From positions 1 to 43,585 of the IMG/VR virus record IMGVR_UViG_3300017613_000031: 43,585 nt of DNA; one strand, 5' to 3'. The translations under genes were made by a program, and so were the position numbers. The DNA is from a virus. Under the pieces are notes generated by a model. That model ran no database searches. It worked only from the letters and a program-made list of their open reading frames with translations, and was not told the origin of the DNA. Positions 1 through 42,259 of this stretch are shown piece by piece; position 1 is the stretch's first letter, and every line of letters starts with the position of its first letter.

Positions 1-44
1 AGGACGAGCCAGAAACATTCACTGGCAGGTTTTAAGTGTGACAC

Positions 45-73
45 TTGACACCACCCAGAGAATCACCTAGAGT
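45..73 (+). promoter_or_regulatory. Sigma70-like promoter, copy A of duplicated leader
   Basis: TTGACA at 45-50, a 17-bp spacer and TAGAGT at 68-73. This is a perfect -35 box with a 4/6 match to the -10 box. The stretch from 45 to the ATG at 100, including the AAGGAG ribosome site, is nearly identical to 349-405. It is well placed to start the rightward early genes. No experimental start site is known. Confidence 0.6.
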
Positions 74-99
74 ACTTATAGAAACAAAGGAGAGCTACA

Positions 100-333
100 A
101 TGACACTTACATTCTGGGATGGGCACAGAGCCGATGAAATTGCGAAGAGGGTTGACCAAGACTGGCTGGATTTCGCCCACGTCTATTATCGCTTTCATAA
201 TGACGGAGATGTACCGCACCATATGACCGTCAAGCGACTGGCTCGTGCCGCAAATGTTATAGTCGATACTGGCTGGGAGCAGGCAGGAGACTATTTAGAA
301 CGGATCGGCACTGGCCTACTGGACAGCTACTAA
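100..333 (+). CDS. Small hypothetical early protein (77 aa)
   Basis: I do not recognise this protein. It starts at an ATG seven bases after AAGGAG and is the first gene behind promoter copy A. The sequence is soluble-looking, rich in Asp, Arg and His, with no membrane segment, signal peptide or familiar motif. Base composition is somewhat more GC-rich than the replication genes downstream. Its place at the left end, with its own promoter and leader duplicated before the next gene, suggests an early host-takeover or accessory role, but that is inference from position only. Confidence 0.7.
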   Translation: MTLTFWDGHRADEIAKRVDQDWLDFAHVYYRFHNDGDVPHHMTVKRLARAANVIVDTGWEQAGDYLERIGTGLLDSY

Positions 334-348
334 AACCAACGGGGCCTG

Positions 349-377
349 TTGACACCACCCAGAGAATCACCTAGAGT
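349..377 (+). promoter_or_regulatory. Sigma70-like promoter, copy B of duplicated leader
   Basis: TTGACA at 349-354, a 17-bp spacer and TAGAGT at 372-377, followed by AAGGAG and the ATG at 403. It matches copy A over about 57 bases with only a one-base gap and a substitution, so promoter, untranslated leader and ribosome site were duplicated as a unit. Confidence 0.6.
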
Positions 378-402
378 ACTTATAGAAACAAGGAGAACTA
401 CA

Positions 403-639
403 ATGACAACTAATAAACGACACAGCAACCACATCGTAAGTGCTCAAGTGGCTTTTACGAAAGATGGGTCAGAAACACAGTCCACAGTGGAAATTAGTGG
501 GCTACCCTGTACTTGGCAGTGGGATGAAATGACACGGGATTGTGCTGAGTATAGTGCTATCATTGATTATGTCGTTGACAACCTAGACTTCGACTGGTTT
601 AGTGTAGTAGCATGGAGTAGTACCCACGATGGAAAATGA
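403..639 (+). CDS. Small hypothetical early protein (78 aa)
   Basis: I do not recognise this protein. The open frame extends upstream to a TTG at 349, but that TTG is the -35 box of promoter copy B. The ATG at 403 has AAGGAG in front and lies at the same distance from the leader as the ATG of the first gene, so it is the likely start. The product is acidic, with two Trp-containing stretches and no membrane segment. Although its leader matches that of the first gene, the two proteins share no obvious sequence similarity, so only the control region was copied. Confidence 0.65.
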   Translation: MTTNKRHSNHIVSAQVAFTKDGSETQSTVEISGLPCTWQWDEMTRDCAEYSAIIDYVVDNLDFDWFSVVAWSSTHDGK

Positions 640-721
640 CCCTTGCGACGATTGGACAGAGGGACTACCTTTACCAAAACCACCATATGACGGTGACGAT
701 AATAAGGAGACTAAAGAATGA
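629..721 (+). CDS. Possible 30-aa microprotein
   Basis: A 31-codon frame starts at an ATG inside the end of the preceding gene and ends in an ATGA overlap with the hydrolase gene that follows. The product would be strongly acidic, with many Asp and Glu and a Pro-rich centre. A GGAG lies 12 bases before the start, which is rather far. The tight overlaps on both sides fit the translational coupling used all along this strand and explain what would otherwise be a gap. Function unknown; it could be a chance frame. Confidence 0.4.
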   Translation: MENDPCDDWTEGLPLPKPPYDGDDNKETKE

Positions 722-1095
722 CACCACTGCTTTGTTTAGCTACAGCCATCTTCTTTGAGGCTAGGAGTGAACCCATTGACGGACAGTATGCTGTTGGTGA
801 GGTTATCCTGAACCGTGTAGAGGATACTAGATACCCTGACACAGTGTGTAAGGTAGTATTTGAGAAACAACAGTTCTCTTTCACACATGATGGTGCCTCT
901 GATACTATGCACGAGGGTGAAGCTAAGGATTTAGCTATTTCAGTGGCCTCTGATTTATTGTGTGGTGAGACAACAGGGCTAACATCTACACACTATCATG
1001 CAACTTACGTAAAACCTTTCTGGAGGAAGCACTTTACACTTGACGGACAGATAGGGAATCATATATTCTATACAAACGAAACAAAGTATAGATAG
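718..1095 (+). CDS. SleB-type cell wall hydrolase
   Basis: This 125-aa protein matches the SleB / Hydrolase_2 family, which cleaves peptidoglycan glycan strands. Visible family features are FFEARSE at residues 12-18 (Glu14 is the likely catalytic residue), the LNRV segment near 31-34, the QFS motif near 52-54 and a C-terminal HATYVKPFW region. It is only the catalytic domain; there is no signal peptide or anchoring domain. It sits among early + strand genes, far from the lysis cassette on the - strand, which carries its own M15 endolysin. It may help lysis, or it may loosen the wall at another stage. Family assignment is firm; the role is not. Confidence 0.85.
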   Translation: MTPLLCLATAIFFEARSEPIDGQYAVGEVILNRVEDTRYPDTVCKVVFEKQQFSFTHDGASDTMHEGEAKDLAISVASDLLCGETTGLTSTHYHATYVKPFWRKHFTLDGQIGNHIFYTNETKYR

Positions 1096-1104
1096 GAGGT
1101 TATC

Positions 1105-1341
1105 ATGCCAACAGTAACAGTAGAAGTGAGAGGGATTGAAGTGGAACTTGATGTATACGGAGAGGTGGAGTCGGGTGGTAGTAACTGCTACGGTAGTACT
1201 GAACCAGAGTGGACAGAGGTTAATGAGATAGAACTCTGGAACCCCGTACGGATGCGGGAGATATCACCCAAGTTGTACAAGGAGATTATCTCCACATATG
1301 AAGACTACATAACAGAAGCAATCCTAGAAGGGGATGTATAA
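1105..1341 (+). CDS. Hypothetical protein (78 aa)
   Basis: I do not recognise this protein. It starts at an ATG behind a strong AGGAGG site and ends in a TAATG overlap with the next gene. The N-terminal 16 residues alternate hydrophobic and polar residues as in a beta strand (TVTVEVRGIEVELDVYG), the middle is Gly/Ser rich, and the C-terminal third looks helical and acidic. No membrane segment. It is probably a small cytoplasmic early protein in the same transcript as the hydrolase. Confidence 0.65.
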   Translation: MPTVTVEVRGIEVELDVYGEVESGGSNCYGSTEPEWTEVNEIELWNPVRMREISPKLYKEIISTYEDYITEAILEGDV

Positions 1342-1550
1342 TGCGAATTATTATTAGTGAAACCTTAGATGTTGACCCTAAGGACGGTGTACTATCAGTA
1401 TTCGATGATATGGGTGCTACCCTCAGTATGGGTACTGTATCAGTATCACTTAGCCCAGAGGCTGTGAGGTCACTACAGAAGGCTCTGGACGTAGCACAGC
1501 AGGAGTGCCTAGAGTTAGCCCGTAATGAACGCCACAAGGGGTTAAAATGA
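1341..1550 (+). CDS. Hypothetical protein (69 aa)
   Basis: I do not recognise this protein. The start codon overlaps the previous stop (TAATG) and its own stop overlaps the next start (ATGA), so it is translated in a chain with its neighbours. The first half looks beta-rich with an LSMGTVSVSLS stretch; the second half is one amphipathic helix (residues about 40-62). No signal peptide or membrane segment is visible. Probably a small cytoplasmic phage protein; no function can be read from the sequence. Confidence 0.65.
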   Translation: MRIIISETLDVDPKDGVLSVFDDMGATLSMGTVSVSLSPEAVRSLQKALDVAQQECLELARNERHKGLK

Positions 1551-1729
1551 GCTATCTTGTGGCAATGGTTAACCTTGAAACCGCACACATAGAGCCACTA
1601 TATACTGGTAAGACCTACAACAAGATTGAAGCACTACAGCGGGTCAACGAGTTGAATAAAAATTGCAGAGAAGAGTTAAAAGCACTTGACTACGATTCGT
1701 TTGTAGTGTACAGTGTAGGAACATGGTAA
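1547..1729 (+). CDS. Hypothetical protein (60 aa)
   Basis: I do not recognise this protein. It overlaps the preceding gene by ATGA and is followed 19 bases later by the next gene. The sequence starts with a hydrophobic strand, has a central helix (residues about 24-45) and ends in a second strand (FVVYSVGTW), a compact alpha/beta look. Similar tiny proteins are common in phage early regions, and I cannot assign a function. Confidence 0.6.
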   Translation: MSYLVAMVNLETAHIEPLYTGKTYNKIEALQRVNELNKNCREELKALDYDSFVVYSVGTW

Positions 1730-1748
1730 AGCAAAAGGAGAGAAAACA

Positions 1749-2003
1749 ATGCTTACTAAAGAACAAGTGAACTGCCTCGTAAAAGGCAAAGACAGCAAGA
1801 TTGCTACAGTTACATTCATCAAAGCTGATGGTACTGAGCGTGTAGTTAATGGCCTCTTTAAGCCAACAAGCAAGATGGTAGGCTCAGACCGTGGACTAGC
1901 ACAAGGTGAAGCTATGAAAGCCCGTGGACAGGTTCCTATCTGGGAGATTGCACAAGGGAAGTGGAAGAGCTTCTATGCGGATCGGGTGGTTAACATCACC
2001 TGA
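1749..2003 (+). CDS. Small protein, possibly SH3 beta-barrel like (84 aa)
   Basis: Starts behind AAAAGGAG. Residues 19-39 read as a beta hairpin with the pattern VTFIKADGTERVVNGLF, followed by a Ser/Gly linker and a C-terminal WEIAQGKWKSF strand. This layout resembles small phage proteins of the DUF2693 type, described as SH3 beta-barrel folds, which often carry 'FxKxDGTxR' near the start. The match is from memory and weak. No enzymatic motif. It is the last of a run of tightly packed small genes before the sigma-like gene. Confidence 0.6.
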   Translation: MLTKEQVNCLVKGKDSKIATVTFIKADGTERVVNGLFKPTSKMVGSDRGLAQGEAMKARGQVPIWEIAQGKWKSFYADRVVNIT

Positions 2004-2043
2004 TACCCCCCACAGTGGAAATTAAGAGTAAGGAGAGAACACT

Positions 2044-2187
2044 ATGCCAGAGGGTTTGTTTGAAGTTGTAATAATGCTGGTGGGGCTTTACTTGTCCCAC
2101 GGCGTACACAAACTAAAGAAGCGGGTGATAGCCCTAGAGATGATTGCAATGATAACCATACTAGAAAAGGAGCAAGACAATGACTGA
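2044..2187 (+). CDS. Small predicted membrane protein (47 aa)
   Basis: A 48-codon frame behind AAGGAGAG. The N-terminal part carries a hydrophobic stretch (about residues 5-19) followed by a KLKKR basic patch, then a second hydrophobic stretch and an acidic end. This suggests a small inner-membrane protein with one or two short membrane passes. Function unknown; small membrane proteins in early phage regions often interfere with host functions, but nothing here shows that. Its last codons contain the ribosome site and start of a six-codon frame at 2180. Confidence 0.5.
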   Translation: MPEGLFEVVIMLVGLYLSHGVHKLKKRVIALEMIAMITILEKEQDND

Positions 2188-2213
2188 AAGATTTCTTTAG
2201 CCCTGTTTAGGGC
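2180..2213 (+). promoter_or_regulatory. Six-codon leader frame and small hairpin before the sigma-like gene
   Basis: An ATG at 2180 behind AAAAGGAG opens a frame of only six codons ending at 2200. It is followed at once by a perfect stem GCCCT-GTTT-AGGGC (2200-2213). The start context is nearly the same as at the real gene start at 2261. This could be a leader peptide with a small attenuator-like hairpin, or the remains of a duplicated start region. There is no U-tract, so a classic terminator is not seen. Confidence 0.3.
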
Positions 2214-2260
2214 AATGCGAAAGAATAACCCGCCAGCCCTCAAAACAAAGGAGACAGACA

Positions 2261-2848
2261 ATGACTGATACTGAAATGCTTAAGATGTGTAAGGCCCTAG
2301 CTGGTCGCTACAATGACACTAACATCTATGACGACCTAGTAAGTGAGGGCATTCTAGCCTGCTATGAAGCCAAGGAAAAGTATGGCGACAAGCTGACTAA
2401 AGAAAGATGCTTAGGTTCAGCTAGGAAGGCTATGCACGAGTATGCAAATGTAGGTACAAAAGCTGTTAAAGTGCCAAGGACTGATAGATCAGGTCTAGTT
2501 GCAACAGCTATACACAATGATGAGTACCCGACAGACCTTGATGGCATAGATAAAACTACCCTAAGCCTGCTTGTAGCAGCTATGATCAACGACACCGTAC
2601 CAGTAGAAGAGTCTGGGCTGTCAGTGCCTAGTCACGCAGAGGAGTTTGAGCGTGTTCAACACAATTTGTACTTGTTGAATAAGATCAAGAAAGCTGCACG
2701 AAAAGATGACTGGGACGTAGTGCTTGACATGGTTTTTAATGATAAAGGTCAACAAGTTAAGGCAGATGAGATGGGAGTATCTCACCAGTACATCGACCAA
2801 CAACATAAGAGGGTAAAGGCTATAGCTGAAAGGGTTTGTAACAAATAG
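2261..2848 (+). CDS. Sigma-70-like RNA polymerase sigma factor (putative)
   Basis: This 195-aa protein has the layout of a small sigma factor. Residues 22-42 (YDDLVSEGILACYEAKEKYG) resemble sigma region 2.1-2.2, where sigma binds core polymerase. A KVPRT segment near 70-74 resembles the start of region 3. Residues about 168-192 (ADEMGVSHQYIDQQHKRVKAI) look like the region 4 helix-turn-helix that reads -35 boxes. The stop codon at 2846-2848 touches the 41-bp promoter that recurs three times in this genome, so it may be the factor that reads it. The overall similarity is my judgement by eye; it could instead be a helix-turn-helix regulator. Confidence 0.6.
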   Translation: MTDTEMLKMCKALAGRYNDTNIYDDLVSEGILACYEAKEKYGDKLTKERCLGSARKAMHEYANVGTKAVKVPRTDRSGLVATAIHNDEYPTDLDGIDKTTLSLLVAAMINDTVPVEESGLSVPSHAEEFERVQHNLYLLNKIKKAARKDDWDVVLDMVFNDKGQQVKADEMGVSHQYIDQQHKRVKAIAERVCNK

Positions 2849-2852
2849 TTAC
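2838..2852 (+). promoter_or_regulatory. Palindrome abutting the -35 box (operator candidate 1)
   Basis: GTAACAAATAGTTAC, an inverted repeat with one mismatched pair, ends exactly one base before the -35 box TTGCAA. An equivalent and perfect palindrome sits at the same place at 6560-6574. The position, centred near -43, is where activators that touch sigma usually bind. Confidence 0.45.
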
Positions 2853-2888
2853 TTGCAAAATCGAGCAAAAGTGCCTTATAAGTAAGTA
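2848..2888 (+). promoter_or_regulatory. Conserved 41-bp phage promoter, copy 1
   Basis: TTGCAA at 2853-2858, a 17-bp spacer and TTATAA at 2876-2881. The block from GTTACTTGCAAAAT to TAAGTA recurs at 6570-6610 and inverted at 42219-42259, with differences almost only in a five-base stretch after CAAAAT and just after the -10. It drives the primase-helicase/polymerase operon. Confidence 0.75.
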
Positions 2889-2900
2889 GGGGAAAGAGGA

Positions 2901-2982
2901 TAAACTTAAGGTTTCCTACTTACAGTATTAAACTCAACCCACTAGTAGTAGAGTTAATATCTAAAGTTAATACTTACAGTAT
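2901..2982 (+). repeat. Leader repeat of the replication operon
   Basis: The untranslated leader between promoter copy 1 and the primase gene. The part at 2931-2982 begins AACTC, contains ACTAGTAGTAGAGTT (a stem AACTC/GAGTT) and ends CTTACAGTAT. It aligns with the two 52-base repeats downstream of promoter copy 3 (42075-42126 and 42010-42061, read on the - strand). The part at 2901-2930 also aligns with the promoter-proximal leader of copy 3. Confidence 0.6.
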
Positions 2983-3010
2983 GTAAGTTTGGTCGTTAAA
3001 GGAGAGAGTA

Positions 3011-4594
3011 ATGGCAGAAAGAGGTAAGGGTCCATGCCCGTATGAAAGTTGTGGGTCGTCAGATGCCTTTTCGTGGGACGACGATGGCTTTGGTAAGTGT
3101 CACTCTTGTGATCGGGGATACCCATCAAAGGCAAAGAAATTTAGTTGGGCTGCGGAGAGATACCCCACCAATGGAAATAAAGGAGATGTTATAGATATGG
3201 CTAGTGCGTTAGACTTCGTACCTAAGAATATTAAAGAGACCCACACAGGGGAATATAAGACTACTCGCGGTGTAGCATCCCGTGTGATGGAAGAGTTCGG
3301 AGTAATGACTTACGGGGATAAGCAGAAGTATGTTTACCCGTCAGGTGGTGTGAAGGTCCGTACACTCAAAGAGAAAGGCTTCTATGCAGAGGCTGGGTTC
3401 AAGGGGGATGAACTGTTTGGTATGAACCTGTTCACCTCTGGGTCAGCTAAGATGGTAACAGTCACTGAGGGGGAGCTAGACGCTATGTCAGTCGCCCAGA
3501 TGCTGCGGAACAGCTACATCAACCCAGTGGTCTCTCTGCCATCTGCTACCCCCTCTAAGAAGCTCTGGGACAACTGCCATGACTGGTTGAACGGGTTTGA
3601 TAAGATCATCCTATCAGTGGACAACGATGAAGCTGGTAATGCTGTTGCTGACCGTATCTCTAAGCTGTTCCCTAGTAAGGTGTATCGTGTAGATCACAGC
3701 AAGTACAAGGACGCTAACGAGTTCCTTATGGCTGATGCTGACGAAGAGTTTAAGAGTGCTTGGTGGGCAGCAAAGAAATATGTACCAGAGAACATACTGA
3801 ACACCACAGAACAGTTCCTGTCGCTCTACAGTGACACACCAGAGCACCAGTACGTGCCAACAGGTATTGAAGACCTAGATGCTAAGATACTTGGGTTCAT
3901 GCAGGGTCACTTTACTGTTATCAAAGCACAGACTGGTATCGGTAAAACTGAGGTGATGCGGTTCATAGAATACAACATGCTAAAAGCTGGCATTCCTATC
4001 GCTGCATGGCACCTAGAAGAGACAAAACTACGTAGTGTCTTAGGTCTTGTGTCGTATCACCTGAGTGATAACCTGACTAGGCGTGACCTAATTGAAGAGA
4101 AAGATAAGAACGAAGAGGTGCTGCAAGCTATCACTGACTTAACTAAGGATGAAAACTTTTACCAGTTCTACCTTAGTGATGGTGATGGTGGTGATGCCCT
4201 TATAGAACAGATCAGGTTCTTTAGTCAGGCTGCTGGTTGTAAGTTTGTGTTCTTTGAGCCTATCCAAGATGTGGTAGTAGGAAGCTCAGAGGAGAGCAAA
4301 GAGAGCATGTTAGCTGACTTGTCTATCCGGCTGTCTAAACTGGCTGCTGAGTTGAATGTAGGCATTATCACTATTGCTCACACCAATGAGAGTGGAGACC
4401 CTAAGTACTGTAAAATGATCGGCCAACGTGCCTCTGTGATTATTAACCTTGACAGGGACAAAGAATCAGAGGATTATGACGAAAGAAACACAACGTATTT
4501 ACGTGTTGAAAAGAATCGCCCATGTTCTGAGGAAGGACCAGCGGGTAAGATGAGGTTCAACACTGATACGTTCACACTGAGAGAGGTATACTAA
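3011..4594 (+). CDS. T7-like bifunctional DNA primase-helicase
   Basis: At 527 aa this resembles T7 gp4, which unwinds the fork and makes primers. Residues 9-33 form a zinc ribbon (Cys9, Cys14, Cys30, Cys33). The TOPRIM primase core shows VTEGELDAM with Glu153 and SVDNDEAG with Asp204 and Asp206. The helicase has a Walker A motif AQTGIGKT at 306-313, a hydrophobic strand ending FFEP as a Walker B candidate, and a late ITIAHTNE segment typical of the DnaB/T7 helicase H3-H4 region. The ATG follows AAGGAGAG. It is the first gene of the replication operon behind promoter copy 1, with the polymerase close downstream. Confidence 0.93.
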   Translation: MAERGKGPCPYESCGSSDAFSWDDDGFGKCHSCDRGYPSKAKKFSWAAERYPTNGNKGDVIDMASALDFVPKNIKETHTGEYKTTRGVASRVMEEFGVMTYGDKQKYVYPSGGVKVRTLKEKGFYAEAGFKGDELFGMNLFTSGSAKMVTVTEGELDAMSVAQMLRNSYINPVVSLPSATPSKKLWDNCHDWLNGFDKIILSVDNDEAGNAVADRISKLFPSKVYRVDHSKYKDANEFLMADADEEFKSAWWAAKKYVPENILNTTEQFLSLYSDTPEHQYVPTGIEDLDAKILGFMQGHFTVIKAQTGIGKTEVMRFIEYNMLKAGIPIAAWHLEETKLRSVLGLVSYHLSDNLTRRDLIEEKDKNEEVLQAITDLTKDENFYQFYLSDGDGGDALIEQIRFFSQAAGCKFVFFEPIQDVVVGSSEESKESMLADLSIRLSKLAAELNVGIITIAHTNESGDPKYCKMIGQRASVIINLDRDKESEDYDERNTTYLRVEKNRPCSEEGPAGKMRFNTDTFTLREVY

Positions 4595-4707
4595 TGATTT
4601 CTACTCCACTTAAAGCTATAAACCCTTGTATAAAACGTAACCTTACTGAGGAACAAAAAGAAGCCGCTAGGGTAAGGTTAGCCGCAGCTAGAGAGAAGAA
4701 AGGGTAG
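4594..4707 (+). CDS. Small basic helical protein (37 aa)
   Basis: A 38-codon frame whose ATG overlaps the stop of the primase-helicase gene (TAATG) and which ends five bases before the polymerase gene. The second half, LTEEQKEAARVRLAAAREKK, is a charged amphipathic helix of a kind seen in many small phage proteins and tails of nucleic acid binding proteins. Its place between primase-helicase and polymerase suggests a small replication accessory protein, but this is inference. Confidence 0.55.
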   Translation: MISTPLKAINPCIKRNLTEEQKEAARVRLAAAREKKG

Positions 4708-4712
4708 TATAG

Positions 4713-6557
4713 ATGTCTACAGTATTTGACATTGAGACTGATGGTCTGTTGGATGAACTAACCAAGATTCACGTCTTGTCATGGTCCACCGATGGAAAAG
4801 AAGTACACCATACACATGACTACGATGAGATGCGTAAGTTCTTCGCGGAAACAGAGACCCTTGTTGGACACAACATTATCAGGTTCGACCTCCCCGCAGT
4901 GGAAAATGTGCTAGGCATCAAGGTTAAGTCACGTCTGGTAGACACACTGGCCTTAAGCTGGTATCTGAACCACCAACGTCAACGTCATGGCCTAGCTGGT
5001 TATGGGGAAGAGTATAAAATACCTAAGCCTGTCGTAAATGACTGGAACAACCTTAAACCAGAGGACTATGCTCACCGTTGTGATGAGGACGTAAAGATCA
5101 ACTCACGCCTGTGGAGAGACTTAGACACTAAGCTGAATAAGTTGTACCAAGACCCCTCCGACAAAAATAGACTTATTGACTACCTGTCCTTCAAGATGGA
5201 CTGTGCTAGGGAACAAGAGACCCTCCGGTGGAAATTAGATGTTGATACTTGTCAAGCTGAGTATGATAAGATTGTTGCTATGAAGAGAGAGAAGGAAGAG
5301 CAACTAGCAGATGCTATGCCTAAGAACCCTGTAATGAAGGTAGCTAACAGGCCCACAAGTATGTACAACCAAGATGGTAGCCTAGGTCATTATGGCCGTA
5401 ACTGGGTAGCTTTGTGTAAGGAGCACCACCGCCCTGAGAGCTACGTAACATTCAAGTACCAGTGCGGCGTAGAGAGAGCTAACCCTAACAGCGTAAGGCA
5501 GGTTAAGGACTGGCTAGAGAGCCTTGGGTGGAGACCTCGTACATACAAGTACCTTCGGGATAAGGTGTCTGGAGATGAGCGTAAGATTGCACAAGTCAGG
5601 AAGGATGGCGAACTGTGTAGCTCTGTGGTTGATCTGATCGACAAAGACCCCGCCGTGGGAATTTTGGATGGTCTGACAGTGTTAACCCACAGGGCTGGTA
5701 TCCTAAAGTCTTTCTTGACTAGCCATAAAGATGGGTGGCTAAAAGCTGAGATTGCTGGGTTTACTAATACCCTTAGATTCCGTCACTCTAAGCCTCTTGT
5801 TAACCTCCCCAGTGTTGATAAACCCTATGGTGATATAGTTCGGGGTGTTCTTACTTGCCCAGAGGGTTATGTCATGGGTGGTGCTGACATGGTTAGCCTA
5901 GAGGATACAACCAAGCGGCACTACATGAAACCACTTGACCCAGATTATGTAGCTGACATGAGCGTAGAAGGGTTTGACCCCCACTTGGACTTAGCTAAAC
6001 ATGCTGGTGTCGTCACACAGGAGGATATCAACGCACACAACTCAGGAAAGGTCTCCCTTAAGGCTCTACGTAAGAACTTCAAGGTGGTCAACTATAGTGC
6101 TACATACGGTATTGGAGAGGTAGCTCTGTCTCGTGGTACTGGTATGACCAACAAAGAAGCTAAGGCACTCCTAGATGCCTTCTGGAGCCGTAACTGGGCT
6201 ATTGAGAGGGTAGCTAAGGGAGTAAGGACTAGGGAGCTATTTGGTAGTAAGTGGCTGCTGAACCCAGTCTCAGGCTTCTTCTACAGCCTACGTGGGGATA
6301 AGGATAGGTTCTCCACACTCAACCAAGGTACAGGGGTGTTCTGCTTCGACACTTGGGTAGAGGCTTGCAGAGAAAGGGGTATCCAGACCATTGGGCAGTT
6401 CCACGATGAGATTATCGCACTAGTAAAGGTTGGAGAAGAGGGAGAGGCGAAGAAAGCAATGGAAGAGGCTGTTGTAGTTCTTAACGAGAAGGTTGATCTA
6501 AACGTACACCTTGGTATGGACCTACAGTTTGGTAAGACTTACGCAGATATTCACTAA
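4713..6557 (+). CDS. DNA polymerase, family A (T7 type) with 3'-5' exonuclease
   Basis: A 614-aa replicative polymerase, shorter than T7 gp5 (704 aa). The N-terminal proofreading domain shows FDIETDG (Asp6, Glu8), GHNIIRFDLP (Asp59) and a third acidic cluster HRCDED at 121-126. The polymerase domain shows motif A around ADMVSLED, motif B RKNFKVVNYSATYG (Tyr at the position that governs dideoxynucleotide use in T7 gp5) and motif C QFHDEI with the catalytic Asp. It follows the primase-helicase gene in one transcript and is followed by promoter copy 2. No thioredoxin gene is seen nearby; T7 polymerase borrows host thioredoxin. Confidence 0.95.
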   Translation: MSTVFDIETDGLLDELTKIHVLSWSTDGKEVHHTHDYDEMRKFFAETETLVGHNIIRFDLPAVENVLGIKVKSRLVDTLALSWYLNHQRQRHGLAGYGEEYKIPKPVVNDWNNLKPEDYAHRCDEDVKINSRLWRDLDTKLNKLYQDPSDKNRLIDYLSFKMDCAREQETLRWKLDVDTCQAEYDKIVAMKREKEEQLADAMPKNPVMKVANRPTSMYNQDGSLGHYGRNWVALCKEHHRPESYVTFKYQCGVERANPNSVRQVKDWLESLGWRPRTYKYLRDKVSGDERKIAQVRKDGELCSSVVDLIDKDPAVGILDGLTVLTHRAGILKSFLTSHKDGWLKAEIAGFTNTLRFRHSKPLVNLPSVDKPYGDIVRGVLTCPEGYVMGGADMVSLEDTTKRHYMKPLDPDYVADMSVEGFDPHLDLAKHAGVVTQEDINAHNSGKVSLKALRKNFKVVNYSATYGIGEVALSRGTGMTNKEAKALLDAFWSRNWAIERVAKGVRTRELFGSKWLLNPVSGFFYSLRGDKDRFSTLNQGTGVFCFDTWVEACRERGIQTIGQFHDEIIALVKVGEEGEAKKAMEEAVVVLNEKVDLNVHLGMDLQFGKTYADIH

Positions 6558-6559
6558 CT

Positions 6560-6574
6560 GTAACAATTTGTTAC
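6560..6574 (+). promoter_or_regulatory. Perfect palindrome abutting the -35 box (operator candidate 2)
   Basis: GTAACAATTTGTTAC, seven-base perfect arms around a single T, lies immediately upstream of TTGCAA. It corresponds to 2838-2852. At the - strand copy 3 only the promoter-side half site (GTTAC) is kept. Confidence 0.5.
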
Positions 6575-6610
6575 TTGCAAAATGGGCGAAAAGTGCCTTA
6601 TATATAAGTA
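6570..6610 (+). promoter_or_regulatory. Conserved 41-bp phage promoter, copy 2
   Basis: TTGCAA at 6575-6580, a 17-bp spacer and TTATAT at 6598-6603, in the same conserved block as copies 1 and 3. The leader to the SSB gene is only about 22 bases long, with AAAAGGAAAA as ribosome site, and lacks the leader repeats found after copies 1 and 3. It gives the SSB/nuclease genes their own strong start. Confidence 0.75.
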
Positions 6611-6632
6611 CAAGCTATGAAAAGGAAAAATA

Positions 6633-7187
6633 ATGGCTAAACATAAAATGGATATGGTTCTGGAATGGGCCAAAGTGTTTGAGGAAAACTTGGATAAAGG
6701 TAATCCAGACTCCTCACAGAAGTGGCTACGAGACCTCGCAAAGTCTGGTGGTAAAGCTACAGTTAAAGCGTACTTTACTTCGGAAGACCAGATTGACACC
6801 CTTACTGGTGTTGGATTTGAGCGTATGGCTCTTAACCCAAATACTGGCGAAGAAGTTGATCGCATCAAGGTTGGTGAAGAAGCCTTTGGTATCGGTAAGT
6901 ACATTAACCTGACCCGTAAGTTCTCTGATGTAAAGGAAATCAAGGACCGTAAGACTGGTGAGTTTGTCGATGTAGAGTTTGGTGGCCTACCTAAGGTTAT
7001 TGACTTTCGTGACCCTGACAACAAACGGTATTGGTCGTATGAAGAGGACGGACCCATTGGTAATGGTACAGAGGCTAAAGTACAGTTTGACCTATACAAG
7101 GGGCGTACACTTCGCCTAGAGGCTATTGGTGTGACTAAGCTAGTAGAGTTTGTCCTAGAAGACGCTGATGATGAGTTTACAGTATGA
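6633..7187 (+). CDS. Single-stranded DNA-binding protein, T7 gp2.5-like
   Basis: 184 aa, close in size to T7 gp2.5 (232 aa). The segment GPIGNGTEAKVQFDLYKGR followed by RLEAIGVTKLVEF is typical of the OB-fold of gp2.5-like proteins. The protein ends in an acidic tail (EDADDEFTV) with an aromatic residue near the end, the feature by which these SSBs contact polymerase and helicase. It has its own promoter copy 2, which fits the large amounts needed, and it sits between the polymerase and exonuclease genes. By-eye assignment; family confidence is good. Confidence 0.82.
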   Translation: MAKHKMDMVLEWAKVFEENLDKGNPDSSQKWLRDLAKSGGKATVKAYFTSEDQIDTLTGVGFERMALNPNTGEEVDRIKVGEEAFGIGKYINLTRKFSDVKEIKDRKTGEFVDVEFGGLPKVIDFRDPDNKRYWSYEEDGPIGNGTEAKVQFDLYKGRTLRLEAIGVTKLVEFVLEDADDEFTV

Positions 7188-7396
7188 AGATCACAATCAT
7201 AGCTGAGAGTGAAAACGAAGACGATGGTTTTGTTGGCTCAGTGACTGTGGTACGAGAGGAGGTAGATTTTGCTTGGGATTTATCTAAAGCCTTCACTGAT
7301 GCAGCAATAGCTATCGGTTTCACTTATGTCGAAGACGTAGGTTTGAAGTGTAAGGGTAGTGAGGTTAAATGGGGGGAAGGTAACTGGTTTGAGTGA
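7184..7396 (+). CDS. Hypothetical protein (70 aa)
   Basis: I do not recognise this protein. It overlaps the SSB gene by ATGA and overlaps the exonuclease start region at its end. It is acidic, with beta strands predicted at residues 1-7 and 19-30 and one helix in the middle. No membrane segment or metal motif. Its place inside the replication block suggests an accessory replication or repair protein; nothing in the sequence proves it. Confidence 0.65.
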   Translation: MKITIIAESENEDDGFVGSVTVVREEVDFAWDLSKAFTDAAIAIGFTYVEDVGLKCKGSEVKWGEGNWFE

Positions 7397-8090
7397 CTTC
7401 GGGAAAGTTCTAGTCGATGGCGACATCATAGCTTACAGGGCTTCCTACTCTACCCAAGACTTCTCAGTGGAGAGCGCATTCCAAAAGGTGGATGAACTAC
7501 TGGATTACGTTCTCACTGAGACCCAAGGTATACCTGACCTAGACGATTGTGAGGTATACCTAACTGGGTCAGATAACTTTAGGTATGAGATTGCTAAGTC
7601 TTATCCCTACAAGGGTAACAGGAAGTCTACAGAGAAGCCTAGGCACCTACCATATGTACGAGACTACCTTGTACGAGAGTATGGTGCTATAGTGAGTAAG
7701 GGTGAAGAGGCAGACGACCTCATAGCCATTGCAGCAACTAAGTTTGGGCCTGACACTATTGTCGCCTCTATTGATAAGGATATGCTACAGATACCCTGTC
7801 GGCATTTCAACTTCGGTAAGGGGGAGTGGTCTAGGGTCTCAGTGGATGAGGGCAACTTGTTCTTCTACACCCAGATACTAACTGGGGATAGGGCAGATAA
7901 CATTGTAGGCCTACATAGGATAGGACCAGTGAAAGCTGCGAAAATCTTAGCTGGTTGTGTGACAGAAGAAGAACTCTGGGATGCAGTCTTAAAGGCCTAC
8001 AAGGGCGACAGGGAGAGGGTAGTAGAGAATGCGAGGTTACTGTGGCTAAGACGCGAAGAGGGCCAACTGTGGCATCCTCCAAAGCCTTAA
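7389..8090 (+). CDS. 5'-3' exonuclease (FLAP/T7 gp6-like)
   Basis: About 233 aa from a TTG at 7389, chosen because GGGGGGAAGG lies eight bases before it and because the conserved core (VLVDGDIIAYRASYS) starts just after. A longer GTG start at 7359 is possible but lacks a ribosome site. Metal-binding acidic motifs of the family are visible: VDGD, EADDLIA, SIDKDMLQ and TGDRADNIVG, followed by a helix-hairpin-helix GPVKAAKIL that grips DNA. Such enzymes remove RNA primers and make single-stranded ends for recombination. It overlaps the resolvase gene downstream. Confidence 0.9.
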   Translation: MSDFGKVLVDGDIIAYRASYSTQDFSVESAFQKVDELLDYVLTETQGIPDLDDCEVYLTGSDNFRYEIAKSYPYKGNRKSTEKPRHLPYVRDYLVREYGAIVSKGEEADDLIAIAATKFGPDTIVASIDKDMLQIPCRHFNFGKGEWSRVSVDEGNLFFYTQILTGDRADNIVGLHRIGPVKAAKILAGCVTEEELWDAVLKAYKGDRERVVENARLLWLRREEGQLWHPPKP

Positions 8091-35397: not shown

Positions 35398-38285
35398 GCT
35401 GCACCTCCGTCAGTGATTGATGCCCAGCCAGCCGTAAGCAGATCAGCCCTAGCCGTAGTAGGCGCACCCGCAGAATATTTGGACAGTCCGAAGTCTGGTG
35501 TCAGGGCTATTTGCAGGGCTGGTGTAACTGCCACCTGTGCCTCCCAATTAACCAAGAGGCTGTCATAGTCCAAGGCTCCGTTTGGAACACTGGTCATAAA
35601 GCTGTTTAGGTCGCCTGTGCTATTCAACCCTGTGATGTCGAAATCTTCTGGGCCGACAAGAGAGGTTAGGCTAGAGCAGGTGTAGAACATGTATGTCATA
35701 TTCGAAACCAGAGCAGTATCAAAACTGGACACATCAAGAGAGGTTAGGCTCGTGCAGTTGAAGAACATGGCATACATACTCGTAACCAGCCCAGTATCAA
35801 AACTGGACAGATTAAGAGAGGTTAGGCTTGAGCAGCCGTAGAACATGAGCAACATACTCGTAACCAGCCCAGTATCAAAACTGGACAGATTAAGAGAGGT
35901 TAAGCCAGCGCAGTCTCGGATCATATTGCTCATATTCGTAACGGCAGAAGTGTCTGTGGTTCCTACTGTAAACTCAGTCATATTCGAGCAACCATAGAAT
36001 GCTTCATCAAGACGGGTCCAGCCGACATCGCCAAGGTTCAGCACCTTCGTGACTTTCAGTTTATCCCCGCCATTGTTGAAATAGATATTAGGGAACGTGC
36101 CTCTGATCCTGACGACATAATCCCCTGCGGTGGCATAGGTGTGCGCAAGGCCAGCATCATTGTAGGCAGAGATTGAAGATACACTACCATCACCCCACTC
36201 AATACCAGCGTCAAAGGTTCCTACGTTCCGACAAGGAATAGTGAATGTCTCGTCAGCCCCAGTGGTCGTGATGAGCATGGCAAATTCGTCAGTGAAGGTA
36301 AGTGCAGAAGCCTCTTCTATGCCTGTGTCGCCTATGTCTACGGCCCATGCACGGAATAGATTGATATTCAGTGCTAACTCACTACCACCAGCGGCGAACT
36401 TACCAAAGATCAAATAAGGGGTTGTAGCAGAATACGAGAATGAACCAGTGCTTTCTGTACCTACTACCCCACTAAAAGCTAACTGCCCTGCGGAGGTTGT
36501 CACTCTCCACGCTAGATTTTGCTCACTTATTCCATCTGCAATTGCCCCATCTACACCAAGAGTCTGGTTTGACCCGGCAGTACGTATAAAGCCTGACGTG
36601 TTTGAAGTGCCAGTCCTAAGAACTCCGCCACGGTTGTTATTATCTTGATAAAAAGAAAAGAACCTCTGACTGCCGCTAAAAACCCCCGTTGCCTTCATAG
36701 CGTAGGACATTGCCGATGTGTTCCATGTAGAAAGGTCAGCCGCTAGGATTTTCATAGTCTGTGCTGAGCGGGTGACGGTACTGCCTGCGGTTGGGATGTG
36801 AGAACTGATTGAGGATGCGGCAACGATGTCCACGAAACCTGCGTGGAAGTACTCGCCGCCTGTCCCTGCGTAAGATTCCCTGCCGCGAGTGTCATAAGAT
36901 GGGGTGGCAGAAGAATATGACCCTAAGATTAACGGTGTGGTGGTATCAGTAACCGTTGTGCTGCCTGAAATCCAAATCCTGTAAAGCCCATTACCAAGGT
37001 CTACAATCCCACTGCTGGTTAATGTACCGCTAGTTGTTCCAACATCCGTGTCGACCTGCGTACCTGCTGCAAGATCGAACACTGCTGCAAAAAAGTTCTC
37101 ACCGCTGGGGGAAAGTGTCATACCAACATATTGTTGGTCCCCATAAGAAACCACGGCAGAACAGACATAATTTGTTCCAGATACACCGCTTATATTGTAG
37201 AGTAGGCCATGTGTTTCATTGGTAGTATCCGTGACCTCAACCTTGGTCAACGAGGTGTTGCCGTCTGGTCCCGTACCGTTAGCCGCCGTCAATGTGAAGC
37301 TACCCGCCTGACTCATTGACCAAGTGGTAGTAAAGTCATTACTCTCAGTGCAAAGATTAGTAGCCTGCGCACTTTCCACCTGTGCGTATGGGCCAGCCCA
37401 AGTAGAGCCGTTGTAGACGTAGTTAGCCCTACGCATATATGACGCTGCACTGGTTGTAGGGACGTAGCTTTCCAGCCCTGTTGTTTCGTTGTGGGGGTTG
37501 TCCTGCATGCCGCCTAGCGAATTGTTAAACAAGCAAATCGCATTAACGTGTAACTCTGCTGTACCGTCACATGTGACCCCAGCGATAGAGTTATCAGCGG
37601 CACTTATTTCGACATAATACCTACCCAATACGTCAGCACCAGCAGAATTATGTGGGATGTATATCAACCACCAACCATCTGTTGCGGCTGAAATCGTAGG
37701 GGTTCCACTCATTGTGTTTGTTCCAATGACCCCGCTGTCAAGGTTAAAGTAACACCCCCCTCCAGTCGTCATTGATCCATACGAAATAAACATCCATGTG
37801 TGAGAACCCTTCTTAACAAGAAGTTGTGAGCCAGATTCCCCATCAGGGAAGGTTTGGACGCGATAGGCCGCTACTCGATTTGTCCCACCAAGACCATCAT
37901 CGACAACTCTAAATCCTGTACCAGTAAGTCCGTAAATTGCACTTTCTGTCGAGGCTGCGGATAGACCGCTACCAAAACCTACATAATCTGTATCTGTTTC
38001 AGAGTTTAGGAATAAATTATGCGCAGCCCACTTCAACGCACCATCGCTATCCGTGACAGTGGACAAGCCTGTTGTGTCGTAGTCAATCAGGTCAGCCTCA
38101 GCTACCTCAACGCTGTTTTTCTCGTAGTAGCCCGCACCATAGGCCCCAGCCGTTGAGCCGAAATCTGCTATGATCGGGGGTTCAAATCCGTTGGCCGCGT
38201 AAATGGATGCAACAGCACCACCAACTCCAAATACCTGAGTAAGGTAGGTTGTGGTCCTTAGGGCTATAGATAGAGAGGTCGTCAT
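35394..38285 (-). CDS. Large adhesin-like structural protein with BspA-type leucine-rich repeats
   Basis: 963 aa, the longest protein here. Most of it is Ser/Thr/Gly-rich beta sequence with lectin-like stretches (GCYFNLDSG, WWLIYIPHNSAG; LSTWNTSAMSYAMKATGVF). Near the C terminus are 26-residue units of the DUF285/BspA type (LTSLNLSSFDTGLVTSM..MF..C), encoded by 78-bp DNA repeats around 35,630-35,990. Before them a PKD-like segment (TYATAGDYVVRIRG) is visible. BspA repeats bind host surfaces in bacteria and protists. Starts behind AAGGTG. Lying between portal and protease, it may be a head fibre or other surface fibre. Confidence 0.75.
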   Translation of the reverse strand: MTTSLSIALRTTTYLTQVFGVGGAVASIYAANGFEPPIIADFGSTAGAYGAGYYEKNSVEVAEADLIDYDTTGLSTVTDSDGALKWAAHNLFLNSETDTDYVGFGSGLSAASTESAIYGLTGTGFRVVDDGLGGTNRVAAYRVQTFPDGESGSQLLVKKGSHTWMFISYGSMTTGGGCYFNLDSGVIGTNTMSGTPTISAATDGWWLIYIPHNSAGADVLGRYYVEISAADNSIAGVTCDGTAELHVNAICLFNNSLGGMQDNPHNETTGLESYVPTTSAASYMRRANYVYNGSTWAGPYAQVESAQATNLCTESNDFTTTWSMSQAGSFTLTAANGTGPDGNTSLTKVEVTDTTNETHGLLYNISGVSGTNYVCSAVVSYGDQQYVGMTLSPSGENFFAAVFDLAAGTQVDTDVGTTSGTLTSSGIVDLGNGLYRIWISGSTTVTDTTTPLILGSYSSATPSYDTRGRESYAGTGGEYFHAGFVDIVAASSISSHIPTAGSTVTRSAQTMKILAADLSTWNTSAMSYAMKATGVFSGSQRFFSFYQDNNNRGGVLRTGTSNTSGFIRTAGSNQTLGVDGAIADGISEQNLAWRVTTSAGQLAFSGVVGTESTGSFSYSATTPYLIFGKFAAGGSELALNINLFRAWAVDIGDTGIEEASALTFTDEFAMLITTTGADETFTIPCRNVGTFDAGIEWGDGSVSSISAYNDAGLAHTYATAGDYVVRIRGTFPNIYFNNGGDKLKVTKVLNLGDVGWTRLDEAFYGCSNMTEFTVGTTDTSAVTNMSNMIRDCAGLTSLNLSSFDTGLVTSMLLMFYGCSSLTSLNLSSFDTGLVTSMYAMFFNCTSLTSLDVSSFDTALVSNMTYMFYTCSSLTSLVGPEDFDITGLNSTGDLNSFMTSVPNGALDYDSLLVNWEAQVAVTPALQIALTPDFGLSKYSAGAPTTARADLLTAGWASITDGGAA
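35630..35990 (-). repeat. 78-bp tandem repeats inside the adhesin gene
   Basis: At least three consecutive units, with GTATCAAAACTGGAC beginning at 35716, 35794 and 35872 (period 78). Two units are almost identical, including AGATTAAGAGAGGTTA. Flanking units are more diverged. Each encodes one 26-residue leucine-rich repeat, so the number of repeats can change by slippage or recombination without losing frame. Confidence 0.85.
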
Positions 38286-38560: not shown

Positions 38561-39979
38561 CTAAACTTTTGTGGGTTTAGTATTGTTGTTACTACTATCA
38601 CCCGGTTTTCTATTTCCAACGCTATCTCCAGCGTCACTGTCAGATTCTTCCTCAGGTATCTCTACAACCAAGTCTGGGTCGTACTCTAGCTCTGCTATGT
38701 CCATAAGGTCTTTGATAACCTCAGGGTGAGTTGACACATCAATACCTGCACCATTAAGGTTACGTAGGAATGTTGCAATCTCACGGAGATCATGGGGTGC
38801 TACATCACCAGCTACGATCTTAGGCATCTTGTCGTAGTTAAGTCCATTAAGTTCCCACAGACGCTCTACCAGTTGCTTGTTAAGTACGTCTACAACAGCT
38901 TGGATGTAGCTCTCAAGAGCACGTAGGAACAGGTCAGTCTTGGACTTAGAGAGGGCATAGGAGCCACCTGAGGAGCCTAATAACAAGAACTCAGATAGGA
39001 CTGAACGAGCAATATCATGTTGGTAACGCTTGACGACAGGATCAATATCAATATTACGTTTACCGTTTGATGCCATAAGTTCAACGTCAACCAAACGTGT
39101 GGTTGTAGGAGCACCATCCTTGTCTGGGTAAGTATCTGACGGAAGAATGATGTAGCCTTGTTCATTAAACTTAACGTCACGAAGGATTTCCTTCAGACTA
39201 GAGACAAAACTAGCTTGTGCAGCAGAAGCATCCCCTGAAAGGTACTCTGAGGGAATACGACCAACGGGAATACCAGCTAATTCACGTTCAATAGCTATAG
39301 CTTCGATAGCTTGTATGTTGTTCAGGTACTCATAGCTAGTATAGGCATTACGAAGGATAGAACGACCAGAAGGGTCACCATTTAGGGTAGTTGTACGATA
39401 ATACAGTGATTTAGTGGCTGGAATGTAGTTTTTACCATTAAAACCACCAATTCCTTGCTCAATACCAAGAATATCACCAGTTTTCTGGTCAACATCGAAC
39501 CTATTGATGGTCCAAGGTGCTCTAGCAGCAATCTTACGGACACCAATACGCCCATCTGTGTGCTTAGAACGCTTCTTATCTGAGGCCTCTTTAGGGCCAA
39601 CTCTACGTTTGTAGACTACTTCACCCCAGTAGAAACCATATGACAGATACGACAAAGCCTCAGAGATATGGTCATCTAGTGTGTGATCCATGTCATCCAA
39701 GACGCTTTTAACGAAGTCAGCTTCTTTTTGGGCCTCAGGGCTATCATCAGAGGGCTTAACCAGCATATCAACATCACGAAGGATTTGTTCTACTGAGTAC
39801 ATGACAGCACCAATGGTACTATCGTTCTCTCTCATCTCACGGTATTTACGAACTGCCTTGTTACCACGCAACTCAGGTAGAAACTCATCAGCCCGAATAG
39901 AGCCATTCTTTGTGTTAGCACCAGCTACGCCTAGTGTAGACTTAGCTTGTGACTCTGAGAGTTTCTTATTCGTTGACAT
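38561..39979 (-). CDS. Portal protein (DUF935 / Mu gp29-like)
   Basis: 472 aa. Segments RKYREMRENDSTIGAVMYSVEQILRDVDMLVKP, SYGFYWGEVVYKRRVG, NGKNYIPATKSLYYRTTTLNGDPSGRSILRNAY and SKTDLFLRALESYIQAVVDVLNKQLV are typical of Mu gp29/DUF935-type portals. The C terminus is acidic and Ser/Asn rich. The portal forms the ring through which terminase pumps DNA. It lies directly after the large terminase gene. Confidence 0.9.
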   Translation of the reverse strand: MSTNKKLSESQAKSTLGVAGANTKNGSIRADEFLPELRGNKAVRKYREMRENDSTIGAVMYSVEQILRDVDMLVKPSDDSPEAQKEADFVKSVLDDMDHTLDDHISEALSYLSYGFYWGEVVYKRRVGPKEASDKKRSKHTDGRIGVRKIAARAPWTINRFDVDQKTGDILGIEQGIGGFNGKNYIPATKSLYYRTTTLNGDPSGRSILRNAYTSYEYLNNIQAIEAIAIERELAGIPVGRIPSEYLSGDASAAQASFVSSLKEILRDVKFNEQGYIILPSDTYPDKDGAPTTTRLVDVELMASNGKRNIDIDPVVKRYQHDIARSVLSEFLLLGSSGGSYALSKSKTDLFLRALESYIQAVVDVLNKQLVERLWELNGLNYDKMPKIVAGDVAPHDLREIATFLRNLNGAGIDVSTHPEVIKDLMDIAELEYDPDLVVEIPEEESDSDAGDSVGNRKPGDSSNNNTKPTKV

Positions 39980-39997: not shown

Positions 39998-41389
39998 TTA
40001 GGATAGACCCTTGCTGCTACTATAAACAAGGGACAGTTGTGGTTTAGCGTAGCCGTTAAGTGAGAGGTCAGTTATTGCCCATACCAGAGCGTCTAATCTA
40101 TCAGGTGAACCAATCGACCCTAGTGGTTCCCATGTTCTCATTTGAGTTTCAAGTTCGTTGAGGTTATTACCGTGTGGGGGGTTTACTACATGCTTAACAA
40201 GACCACGTTCATACAATGCTGATACTGGTTCTGCTCTAGCGTACTTTCCTCTTGAGGCTCTAACTGCCCTGTAAGGAACTGTTTCATCTTCACCATGAAT
40301 GGTAGTCTTAACCATGTCACCGCCTTGGTTAACTTCAGCAACAATACGGTCAGCTTCGTATTCATGGTAGAGCTTAATGGCTTTAGCTGCCCAAGCTTGG
40401 GGCAGTAGTTTATCTGTGTAATCACCTAAGACGTATGCTATGCCATTGACATCAATGCCAGCGACCATAATACCTGTCATGTCACTCTCAGCATTAGCTG
40501 TAACAGCAGGGTCAAGGGCGACAACAATACGGGTAAGGTCAGGTACATCCTCTTGCTTAACTGATGCGCTCTCAAGCATCTCAGTGGTCCATAGAGCACC
40601 TTCAGCCTCTTCTAGCACTTCAGCGTAAAGCTCTTGTCTACCAAGGCGTGTACCTTCATACTGGTCTCTAACAGCCTTCAGGTATGTACCAGCCAAGTTA
40701 GCTGAGTTATCGAAGGTAGAACCAGTAGTAATAACTGTAGTAGGCTCTTTTAGTATCTGACGGATCAGCTTAGTAGGCTTAGGTGTAGTAGTGACCATGA
40801 TGCGAGGGTGTTTCCCTAGACGCATACAGAACTGGAGCATAGACCAAGTGTCCATATCCTTGTTCCAAGCAGCAGTCTCATCGCACCAAGCTAATTCAAA
40901 CTGTGGACCACGTAGACGTTCAGGTTCCTCTGCTGAGAAGAACTGTACTTGAGCACCATTCTCCCAAGTAAGTGACCTCTTAGTGGGCGACCATTCAGGG
41001 AAGCCTAGAGCTTTACCTTTAGTGGTTCTATCACCCTTCCAGCAGACAGAGAGAAAACCAGATTCTCCCTTTACCATAACTCGTTCAATATCTGAGTTAG
41101 TAGAAGCTACAGCAGCAATACGCTTAACACCATTCTTTACGTTCCAGCGTACCCATTCAACTCCAGCACGGGTCTTACCAAAACCACGACCAGCATTAAT
41201 AAACCAAGTGTTCCAGTCAGCACCATCTGGTTGTAGTTGGTTATCTCTAGCCCAGAAGGTCCAGTCATGCTTTAGTTCTTCTAACTTTACTGGTCCTAGT
41301 GTGTCTAATACCTCTTTAGCCTTCTTGGGGGGTAAGTCCCTAAGTGTCTGTGCTGTTATCAGTCTCTTCTTCATCTGTGCTAATACCAA
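39998..41389 (-). CDS. Terminase large subunit
   Basis: 463 aa with both motor and nuclease parts. Walker A GRGFGKT at 67-73, Walker B ending LAWCDET (Asp170, Glu171), and a coupling motif near VTTTPKP. The nuclease domain begins ALDPAVTANAESDMTGI and contains VAEVNQGGDMV and DRLDALVWA with acidic residues for metal binding. The open frame starts at a TTG (41389) inside the small subunit gene; the first ATG is at 41374. The enzyme cuts and packages DNA into the prohead. Confidence 0.93.
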   Translation of the reverse strand: MVLAQMKKRLITAQTLRDLPPKKAKEVLDTLGPVKLEELKHDWTFWARDNQLQPDGADWNTWFINAGRGFGKTRAGVEWVRWNVKNGVKRIAAVASTNSDIERVMVKGESGFLSVCWKGDRTTKGKALGFPEWSPTKRSLTWENGAQVQFFSAEEPERLRGPQFELAWCDETAAWNKDMDTWSMLQFCMRLGKHPRIMVTTTPKPTKLIRQILKEPTTVITTGSTFDNSANLAGTYLKAVRDQYEGTRLGRQELYAEVLEEAEGALWTTEMLESASVKQEDVPDLTRIVVALDPAVTANAESDMTGIMVAGIDVNGIAYVLGDYTDKLLPQAWAAKAIKLYHEYEADRIVAEVNQGGDMVKTTIHGEDETVPYRAVRASRGKYARAEPVSALYERGLVKHVVNPPHGNNLNELETQMRTWEPLGSIGSPDRLDALVWAITDLSLNGYAKPQLSLVYSSSKGLS

Positions 41390-41750
41390 GTAGTGCAGCC
41401 AGTGTGTCTACAGCACTTTCGTCCATGTCAGGGTCTGTATCTTGTTCAACTTCAATGTTAGTCTGAGTAGGCGACCAACCACCTTTAGAGCGTAAGAACA
41501 ACTCTTGTGACTTGAAGTCACCATCCATAGCTTGATCAATAACCTTCTTACCTACAGAGCCATTGATCTTAGCTCTCTCAGCAAAGATGTAGTCACCATA
41601 AATCTTGTACAACGACGACAGAGATTTAGGAGCACCCTGTAAGTGCTGCATACTAGCAATCATATCACGTATGCCAACTCCACCCTCAATACATGTGAGG
41701 ATGTGTTTTTCTACGTTCTTGCTGTAAGGGAGTTTGGGGATACTAGCCAT
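41340..41750 (-). CDS. Terminase small subunit (putative)
   Basis: 136 aa, first gene of the structural operon, overlapping the large terminase gene by about 50 bases. The N-terminal half (VEKHILTCIEGGVGIRDMIASMQ...PKSLSSLYKIYGDYIFAERAKINGSVGKKVIDQAM) has the helical, helix-turn-helix-like look of small terminase subunits that pick phage DNA. The C-terminal third is very acidic (DTDPDMDESAVD, DEEETD). The ribosome site is weak. Identified mainly by place and layout. Confidence 0.75.
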   Translation of the reverse strand: MASIPKLPYSKNVEKHILTCIEGGVGIRDMIASMQHLQGAPKSLSSLYKIYGDYIFAERAKINGSVGKKVIDQAMDGDFKSQELFLRSKGGWSPTQTNIEVEQDTDPDMDESAVDTLAALLGISTDEEETDNSTDT

Positions 41751-42009: not shown

Positions 42010-42061
42010 ATACTTTAAGTTTTAACTCTAGATATTTGACTCACTCACTAGTAGTAGAGTT
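42010..42061 (-). repeat. Leader repeat, copy 3b
   Basis: 52 bases, identical to 42075-42126 with a 65-base period. On the - strand it begins AACTCTACTACTAGTGAG and ends AACTTAAAGTAT. AACTCTA and TAGAGTT inside form an inverted repeat. Aligns with 2931-2982. Confidence 0.8.
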
Positions 42062-42074
42062 GATTTCTATAGCT

Positions 42075-42126
42075 ATACTTTAAGTTTTAACTCTAGATAT
42101 TTGACTCACTCACTAGTAGTAGAGTT
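42075..42126 (-). repeat. Leader repeat, copy 3a
   Basis: 52 bases, identical to copy 3b. A further diverged copy lies nearer the promoter at about 42,150-42,205 (- strand ACTTAAAGTTTCTCACTTACAG, then ACCACTAGGAAGTAG), matching 2903-2950 of the replication leader. Confidence 0.8.
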
Positions 42127-42218
42127 CTTATCTTAAGCTATTCTACAGTTCTTTTATCTACTTCCTAGTGGTGTAGTTCAATTCTGTAAGTGAGAAACTT
42201 TAAGTATGTAAAAGCTCT

Positions 42219-42259
42219 TACTTATATATAAGGCACTTTTGAGGGATTTTGCAAGTAAC
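42219..42259 (-). promoter_or_regulatory. Conserved 41-bp phage promoter, copy 3 (structural operon)
   Basis: On the - strand: GTTACTTGCAAAAT, five variable bases, AAAAGTGCCTTATATATAAGTA, the same as copy 2 outside the five-base stretch. -35 TTGCAA and -10 TTATAT are separated by 17 bp. It points leftward to the terminase gene and the whole late operon. Confidence 0.75.

Follow-up and report, generated by a model that had tools for sequence, protein, structure and literature searches.

A predicted phage sigma factor and its matched promoter units in phages of the CRP-6 type

Phage T7 makes one specificity factor that acts on a few repeated promoters and has both the replication and the virion genes under it, and T7-related phages diverge in promoter specificity. 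A different solution is found in the lytic Salmonella phage 7-11, which uses host RNA polymerase and expresses its early genes from sigma70 promoters: its gp47 is a phage sigma factor with a region 4, and the late promoters it serves are bipartite, of the form GTAAtg-16-aCTA (PMC8948821). The gp36 protein of phiEco32 is the sigma factor for middle and late genes; it has no region 4 homology, its promoters lack a -35 element, and these promoters differ in sequence from those of 7-11 while occupying similar genome positions (PMC8948821). In bacterial ECF sigma factors domain 2 reads the -10 and domain 4 the -35, and engineered domain swaps among them yield orthogonal sigma-promoter pairs (Rhodius 2013, PMC3817407).

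The DNA analysed here, which we call the window, is a stretch of 43,585 nt (IMG/VR record IMGVR_UViG_3300017613_000031, positions 1 to 43,585). It contains a 41-bp unit at three places: unit 1 at 2848-2888 (plus strand), ahead of the primase-helicase gene; unit 2 at 6570-6610 (plus strand), ahead of the gene for an SSB-fold protein; and unit 3 at 42219-42259 (minus strand), at the start of the leftward late operon, which runs terminase-portal-capsid. An earlier note on this DNA had described three copies nearly identical outside a five-base variable stretch, a TTGCAA-17-TTATAA/TTATAT architecture and a placement ahead of the primase-helicase, SSB-fold and terminase genes; all of this is borne out, the placement in the relatives as well as in the window. 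The three copies share the consensus GTTACTTGCAAAAT-NNNNN-AAAAGTGCCTTATA[AG/TA]TAAGTA and differ pairwise at 5, 5 and 6 of 41 positions, mostly within the five-base stretch; by chance about 1e-7 (9e-8) pairs with at most 5 mismatches are expected. Against the 36-position consensus, units 2 and 3 have no mismatch and unit 1 has 2; the next-best independent place in the window has at least 14. The upstream flank TGTAACAAnnnGTTAC is common to units 1 and 2, and unit 3 is without its left half. Because unit 2 carries the upstream flank of unit 1, the sequences suggest that the promoter linked to the sigma gene described below was copied to the ssb site.

The genes behind these units are as follows: the primase-helicase (3011-4594, plus strand; PHROG 239, E=1.3e-97) and a family A DNA polymerase (4713-6557, plus strand; PHROG 17, E=5e-101) follow unit 1; the SSB-fold protein of the Enc34 type (6633-7187, plus strand) follows unit 2; and on the minus strand unit 3 precedes a first late gene (41340-41750), the terminase large subunit (39998-41389) and the portal protein (38561-39979), the last two assigned by family matches. 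The SSB-fold protein has no match among sequence profiles, and its identity is settled by its predicted fold (AF2 pLDDT 88.7; the top five PDB matches are all Enc34 SSB, the best with E=6e-4). The gene at 41340-41750 has no family match either, and its position before the large terminase makes it a probable small terminase. A PF00940 search of the genome returned no phage RNA polymerase, but its controls were silent too; the stronger argument against such a polymerase is that all ORFs above 460 aa carry assignments other than a single-subunit phage RNA polymerase. The gene for a 963-aa tail-associated protein contains three 78-bp tandem repeats (35658-35942), and its product also matches DUF285 and BspA-type leucine-rich repeats.

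The leaders that follow the units have features of their own. The late leader holds two tandem 65-bp repeats, 92% alike (42010-42139), whose core CACTAGTAGTAGAGTT recurs at 2940, downstream of unit 1 and turned the other way with respect to the promoter, and part of this leader folds better than shuffles (z -3.1). In many relatives, and at 2905-2910 in the window, the leaders are rich in CTTAAG / ACTTAAGT words, which are possible RNA structures or binding sites.

Directly upstream of unit 1, and ending on its first base, lies ORF 2261-2848 (plus strand), whose 195-aa product the earlier note had passed over. By profile, fold and neighbourhood this product is a divergent two-domain (sigma2 + sigma4) phage sigma factor, which would bind the host core polymerase. 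The NCBIfam sigma70-ECF model TIGR02937 covers residues 10-187 of the window protein (E=8.7e-5, below the curated cutoff) and matches all 33 aligned members of the family, that is, the window and 32 relatives; Sigma70_r4 is matched in 31 of the 33, and the PHROG sigma families likewise. The profile of these 33 sequences retrieves SigB, SigF, FliA, SigA and RpoD from the PDB, with a best value of 9e-11. The sigma2 and sigma4 folds of the sigma70 superfamily are present alongside these sequence matches: the AF2 model (pLDDT 84; pTM 0.45, so that the domain arrangement is uncertain) matches PDB sigma factors having both domains over its whole length, and its region 4 superimposes, with 1.8 A over 66 residues, on that of E. 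coli sigmaE in complex with -35 DNA. We considered whether the protein, instead of binding core polymerase as a sigma factor, might be an activator or HTH regulator resembling a sigma, which would sit at the -35 and bring in the host holoenzyme. In this family region 4 gives the strong signal and region 2, in single sequences, a weak one (Pfam Sigma70_r2, E 0.16 for the window protein), as such a regulator would have it; the span of the ECF model, the whole-length fold matches with both sigma domains and a -10 region that tracks the N-terminal domain (see below), though partly through ancestry, make it quite improbable.

The window sigma alone retrieved neither homologues in bacteria, in a single-protein scan, nor related loci; it was the primase that led to the relatives. 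Roseobacter phage CRP-6 (MK613348) and the window are syntenic, with the same gene order, homologous replication genes and primases 70% identical, which makes the window a roseophage of the CRP-6 type. Among 80 IMG/VR contigs fetched with the primase, many of them partial, 63 have a sigma homologue beside the primase, and the homologue occurs at 133 loci in all. Each relative has its own unit, which usually begins inside the final codons of the sigma gene. CRP-6, the nearest isolate, shares with the window the synteny, the sigma homologue (gp14, annotated 'hypothetical protein') and the three unit positions, but differs in the sequence of its unit, TTGACT-17-TCATA[CG]. The CRP-6 isolation paper makes no mention of sigma factors or promoters, and we found no description of a sigma factor in CRP-6-type phages in the literature searched. 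The earlier note had named absence of the block from close relatives as counting against its reading. The literal block is indeed absent, with 0 exact matches in IMG/VR viral contigs and none by blastn in phages, because the -35 changes between phages in step with the sigma factor; it is the position and architecture that are kept. A palindrome, TGTAACAAnnnGTkAC, is not put forward as a separate operator: in most relatives it overlies the sigma gene's final codons, and it is also absent at the unlinked copies listed.

It is covariation that suggests region 4 specifies the -35. In 97 related sigma-unit pairs, with clades defined by the N-terminal domain, particular recognition helices go with particular -35 elements: NKMWVSR with TGTTACA in five clades; NQKxVSR, NQRWVSR and TQRQVSR with TGTCTA in five clades; NQSxVSR with TGCATA in two; NQVWVHR with TGTATA and NQTWVFR with TGAATA; KQA[IV] with GTTGAC in clades 0 and 14 and in CRP-6; RQA with CTTGCG and QQ[AS] with CTTGT; and QK[ST][IV]S with AGTAT in three clades. 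Clade 0 by itself holds four -35 classes: TGTCTA, TGCATA, TGTTACA and TGTTGACT. The window is the sole member of its clade, and its pair, HQYIDQQ within the recognition helix GVSHQYIDQQ and CTTGCA, would follow from the family pattern and its three copies, without replicates. The K/R/Q/H position of the helix we take, as a lead, to correspond to sigma70 R584. In a set of 47 clade-by-helix representatives, pairs drawn from different clades have 1.64 mismatches at the -35 where their helices are similar, against 3.95 for the rest, a contrast reached in 0 of 2000 within-clade permutations. Partial Mantel tests on 46 representatives relate the -35 to the helix given the N-terminal domain (r=0.458, 0/5000 permutations) and not to the N-terminal domain given the helix (r=-0.01), and the -10 to the N-terminal domain given the helix (r=0.484, 0/5000); such permutations do not fully remove shared ancestry, and the relatives are metagenome contigs that may be chimeric. 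We read the -35 as probably tracking the region-4 recognition helix rather than ancestry, a relation not easily explained by shared descent, and the -10 region as probably tracking the N-terminal domain, in a correlation that is partly shared ancestry.

These results bear on the simplest alternative, that the units are ordinary Rhodobacteraceae sigma70-type promoters and the upstream protein is unrelated. The TTGCAA-17-TTATAA geometry is sigma70-like, and so are the early promoters of the same phage. A scan of 1-8000 for TTGACA-17-TATAAT at a 9-of-12 threshold, however, lists neither 2853 nor 6575, so that units 1 and 2 are not host sigma70 promoters by this measure; the TGTCTA, TGCATA, TGTATA and TGAATA found at the same place in relatives all bear little resemblance to TTGACA; and -35 variants that follow the phage region 4 are inexplicable with a host sigma that stays constant. 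We regard this alternative as very improbable.

Those early promoters lie at 45-87 (plus strand; TTGACA-17-TAGAGT, of the host sigma70 type, with GAATC, a GANTC site, in the spacer) and 349-391 (plus strand), an exact 43-bp duplicate of the first; their position upstream of the sigma gene points to an early role. A strict consensus gave too few matches for such promoters, and the pattern TTGAC-n-GAATC worked better: in the window and relatives the early-type promoters have the form TTGAC-N9/10-GAATC, with GANTC in the spacer at a fixed distance (79 of 163 spacings in the range 3-16 are 9 or 10, against 11 of 68 in the reversed-word control). They occur across genomes of many sigma classes (for instance L044:2682, L017:4074 and L084:918). 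GANTC is depleted in the window, with 80 sites against 167 in base shuffles. GANTC is the CcrM methylation site, and GcrA is the alphaproteobacterial activator of sigma70 promoters with methylated GANTC; the phage early promoters may exploit GcrA.

Since a promoter adjacent to the sigma gene could simply hitch-hike with it, we located unlinked copies, kilobases from that gene, using nothing but 13 bases surrounding the -10, and read off the -35 afterwards. In 35 of 44 such copies the -35 is within 1 mismatch of the sigma-linked one, where permutation leads one to expect 6.7 (free) or 23.7 (within clade); the observed mean was reached in 0 of 10000 permutations of either kind, and chance probably accounts for a few of the 44 copies. 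In clade 0 alone, whose N-terminal domain is nearly constant, 8 of 10 unlinked copies match (3/10000). The mismatched copies include the ssb copies of L015 and L016, both copies of L120 and the late copy of L132. At L015:12031 and L016:5539 the ssb copy has the -35 of another sigma class, while the linked copy, and in L015 also the late copy, matches; these mixed sets look like either intermediate, transitional genomes or chimeric assemblies.

Between the classes of clade 0 the first 400 bases of the sigma gene are mostly 90-100% identical. Over region 4, the -35 and the spacer the figure is about 30-70%, and beginning with the -10 it is back at 97-100%; in L043/L022, two members of one class, identity is high throughout. 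The differing block of region 4 and adjacent -35 is roughly 180-200 bp long with near-identical flanks, and the distant promoters follow its change. This pattern resembles the exchange of a block that has one limit inside the gene and the other inside the promoter. That helix and -35 covary merely as one recombining neighbour block, the unit being a replication origin, an operator or something else, would suit this block with its 90-100% identical flanks and is close to negligible, as copies 3.6-10 kb off or on the other strand bear the same -35 class, the helix/-35 relation persists between clades with unlinked copies only (0/5000), and the same helix in distant clades goes with the same -35.

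The reading we prefer, with a probability of about 0.93, is that the phage sigma and host RNA polymerase drive the replication, SSB and late operons from the three units. Host RNA polymerase would transcribe the left early region from the sigma70-type promoters at 45 and 349, making the sigma factor; this would bind the host core polymerase, with the sigma4 helix recognising CTTGCAA at the -35 and the sigma2 domain CCTTATA in the -10 region; and unit 1 would then start the replication operon, unit 2 the SSB/nuclease/nucleotide operon and unit 3, on the opposite strand, the virion operon. Transcription starts, timing and core binding are what we infer from the sigma homology, from the three places and from the finding that across relatives, unlinked copies included, the -35 varies with the helix and the -10 with the N-terminal domain. 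The earlier note was very probably right that this is a promoter unit by which replication and virion genes share one control, in a phage that appears to lack an RNA polymerase of its own; what it missed is the phage-encoded reader, with which the counterpart of the T7 system would be a sigma switch of the host polymerase and not a plain host promoter. Across the relatives the reading head of the sigma and its start signals appear to have switched together many times, exposing a natural protein-DNA code. We further propose, at even odds, that CRP-6-type phages regularly exchange the region-4 and -35 cassette and then convert the remaining promoters, so that co-circulating phages are insulated from one another in transcription, under selection by co-infection interference or by host or satellite factors exploiting the promoters.

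The proposed mechanism would provide an abundant marine phage group with the transcription switch that was absent from the published description of its isolate. The family also offers dozens of natural, close sigma-promoter pairs, some of them alike in nearly everything but the domain that reads the -35, in which a residue-to-base code of sigma region 4 could be read from natural variants and directly tested. It would also be a case of a regulator that changes its DNA target along with its sites, an old problem in regulatory network evolution.

Set against the known systems, the phage sigma would have here the role that T7 RNA polymerase has in T7; in contrast to T7, the window phage would use the host core polymerase with a sigma, and no single-subunit polymerase was found. 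The proposed mechanism has its proven precedent in gp47 of phage 7-11, whose host is gammaproteobacterial; there two phages were compared, without a family-wide helix-to-base relation. Unlike in phiEco32, the -35 of the window family is the most variable, sigma-matched part of the promoter. As in the ECF factors, the sigma has two domains, though no anti-sigma was identified in the window phage, and the engineered ECF chimeras are a precedent for modularity; here, however, the swap would be natural, within one phage lineage, and would change the promoter set of a whole genome. While phage sigma factors as a kind are known from phage 7-11 gp47, what appears to be new is this sigma family, the code that links its residues to bases, and a switching that is coordinated and cassette-like.
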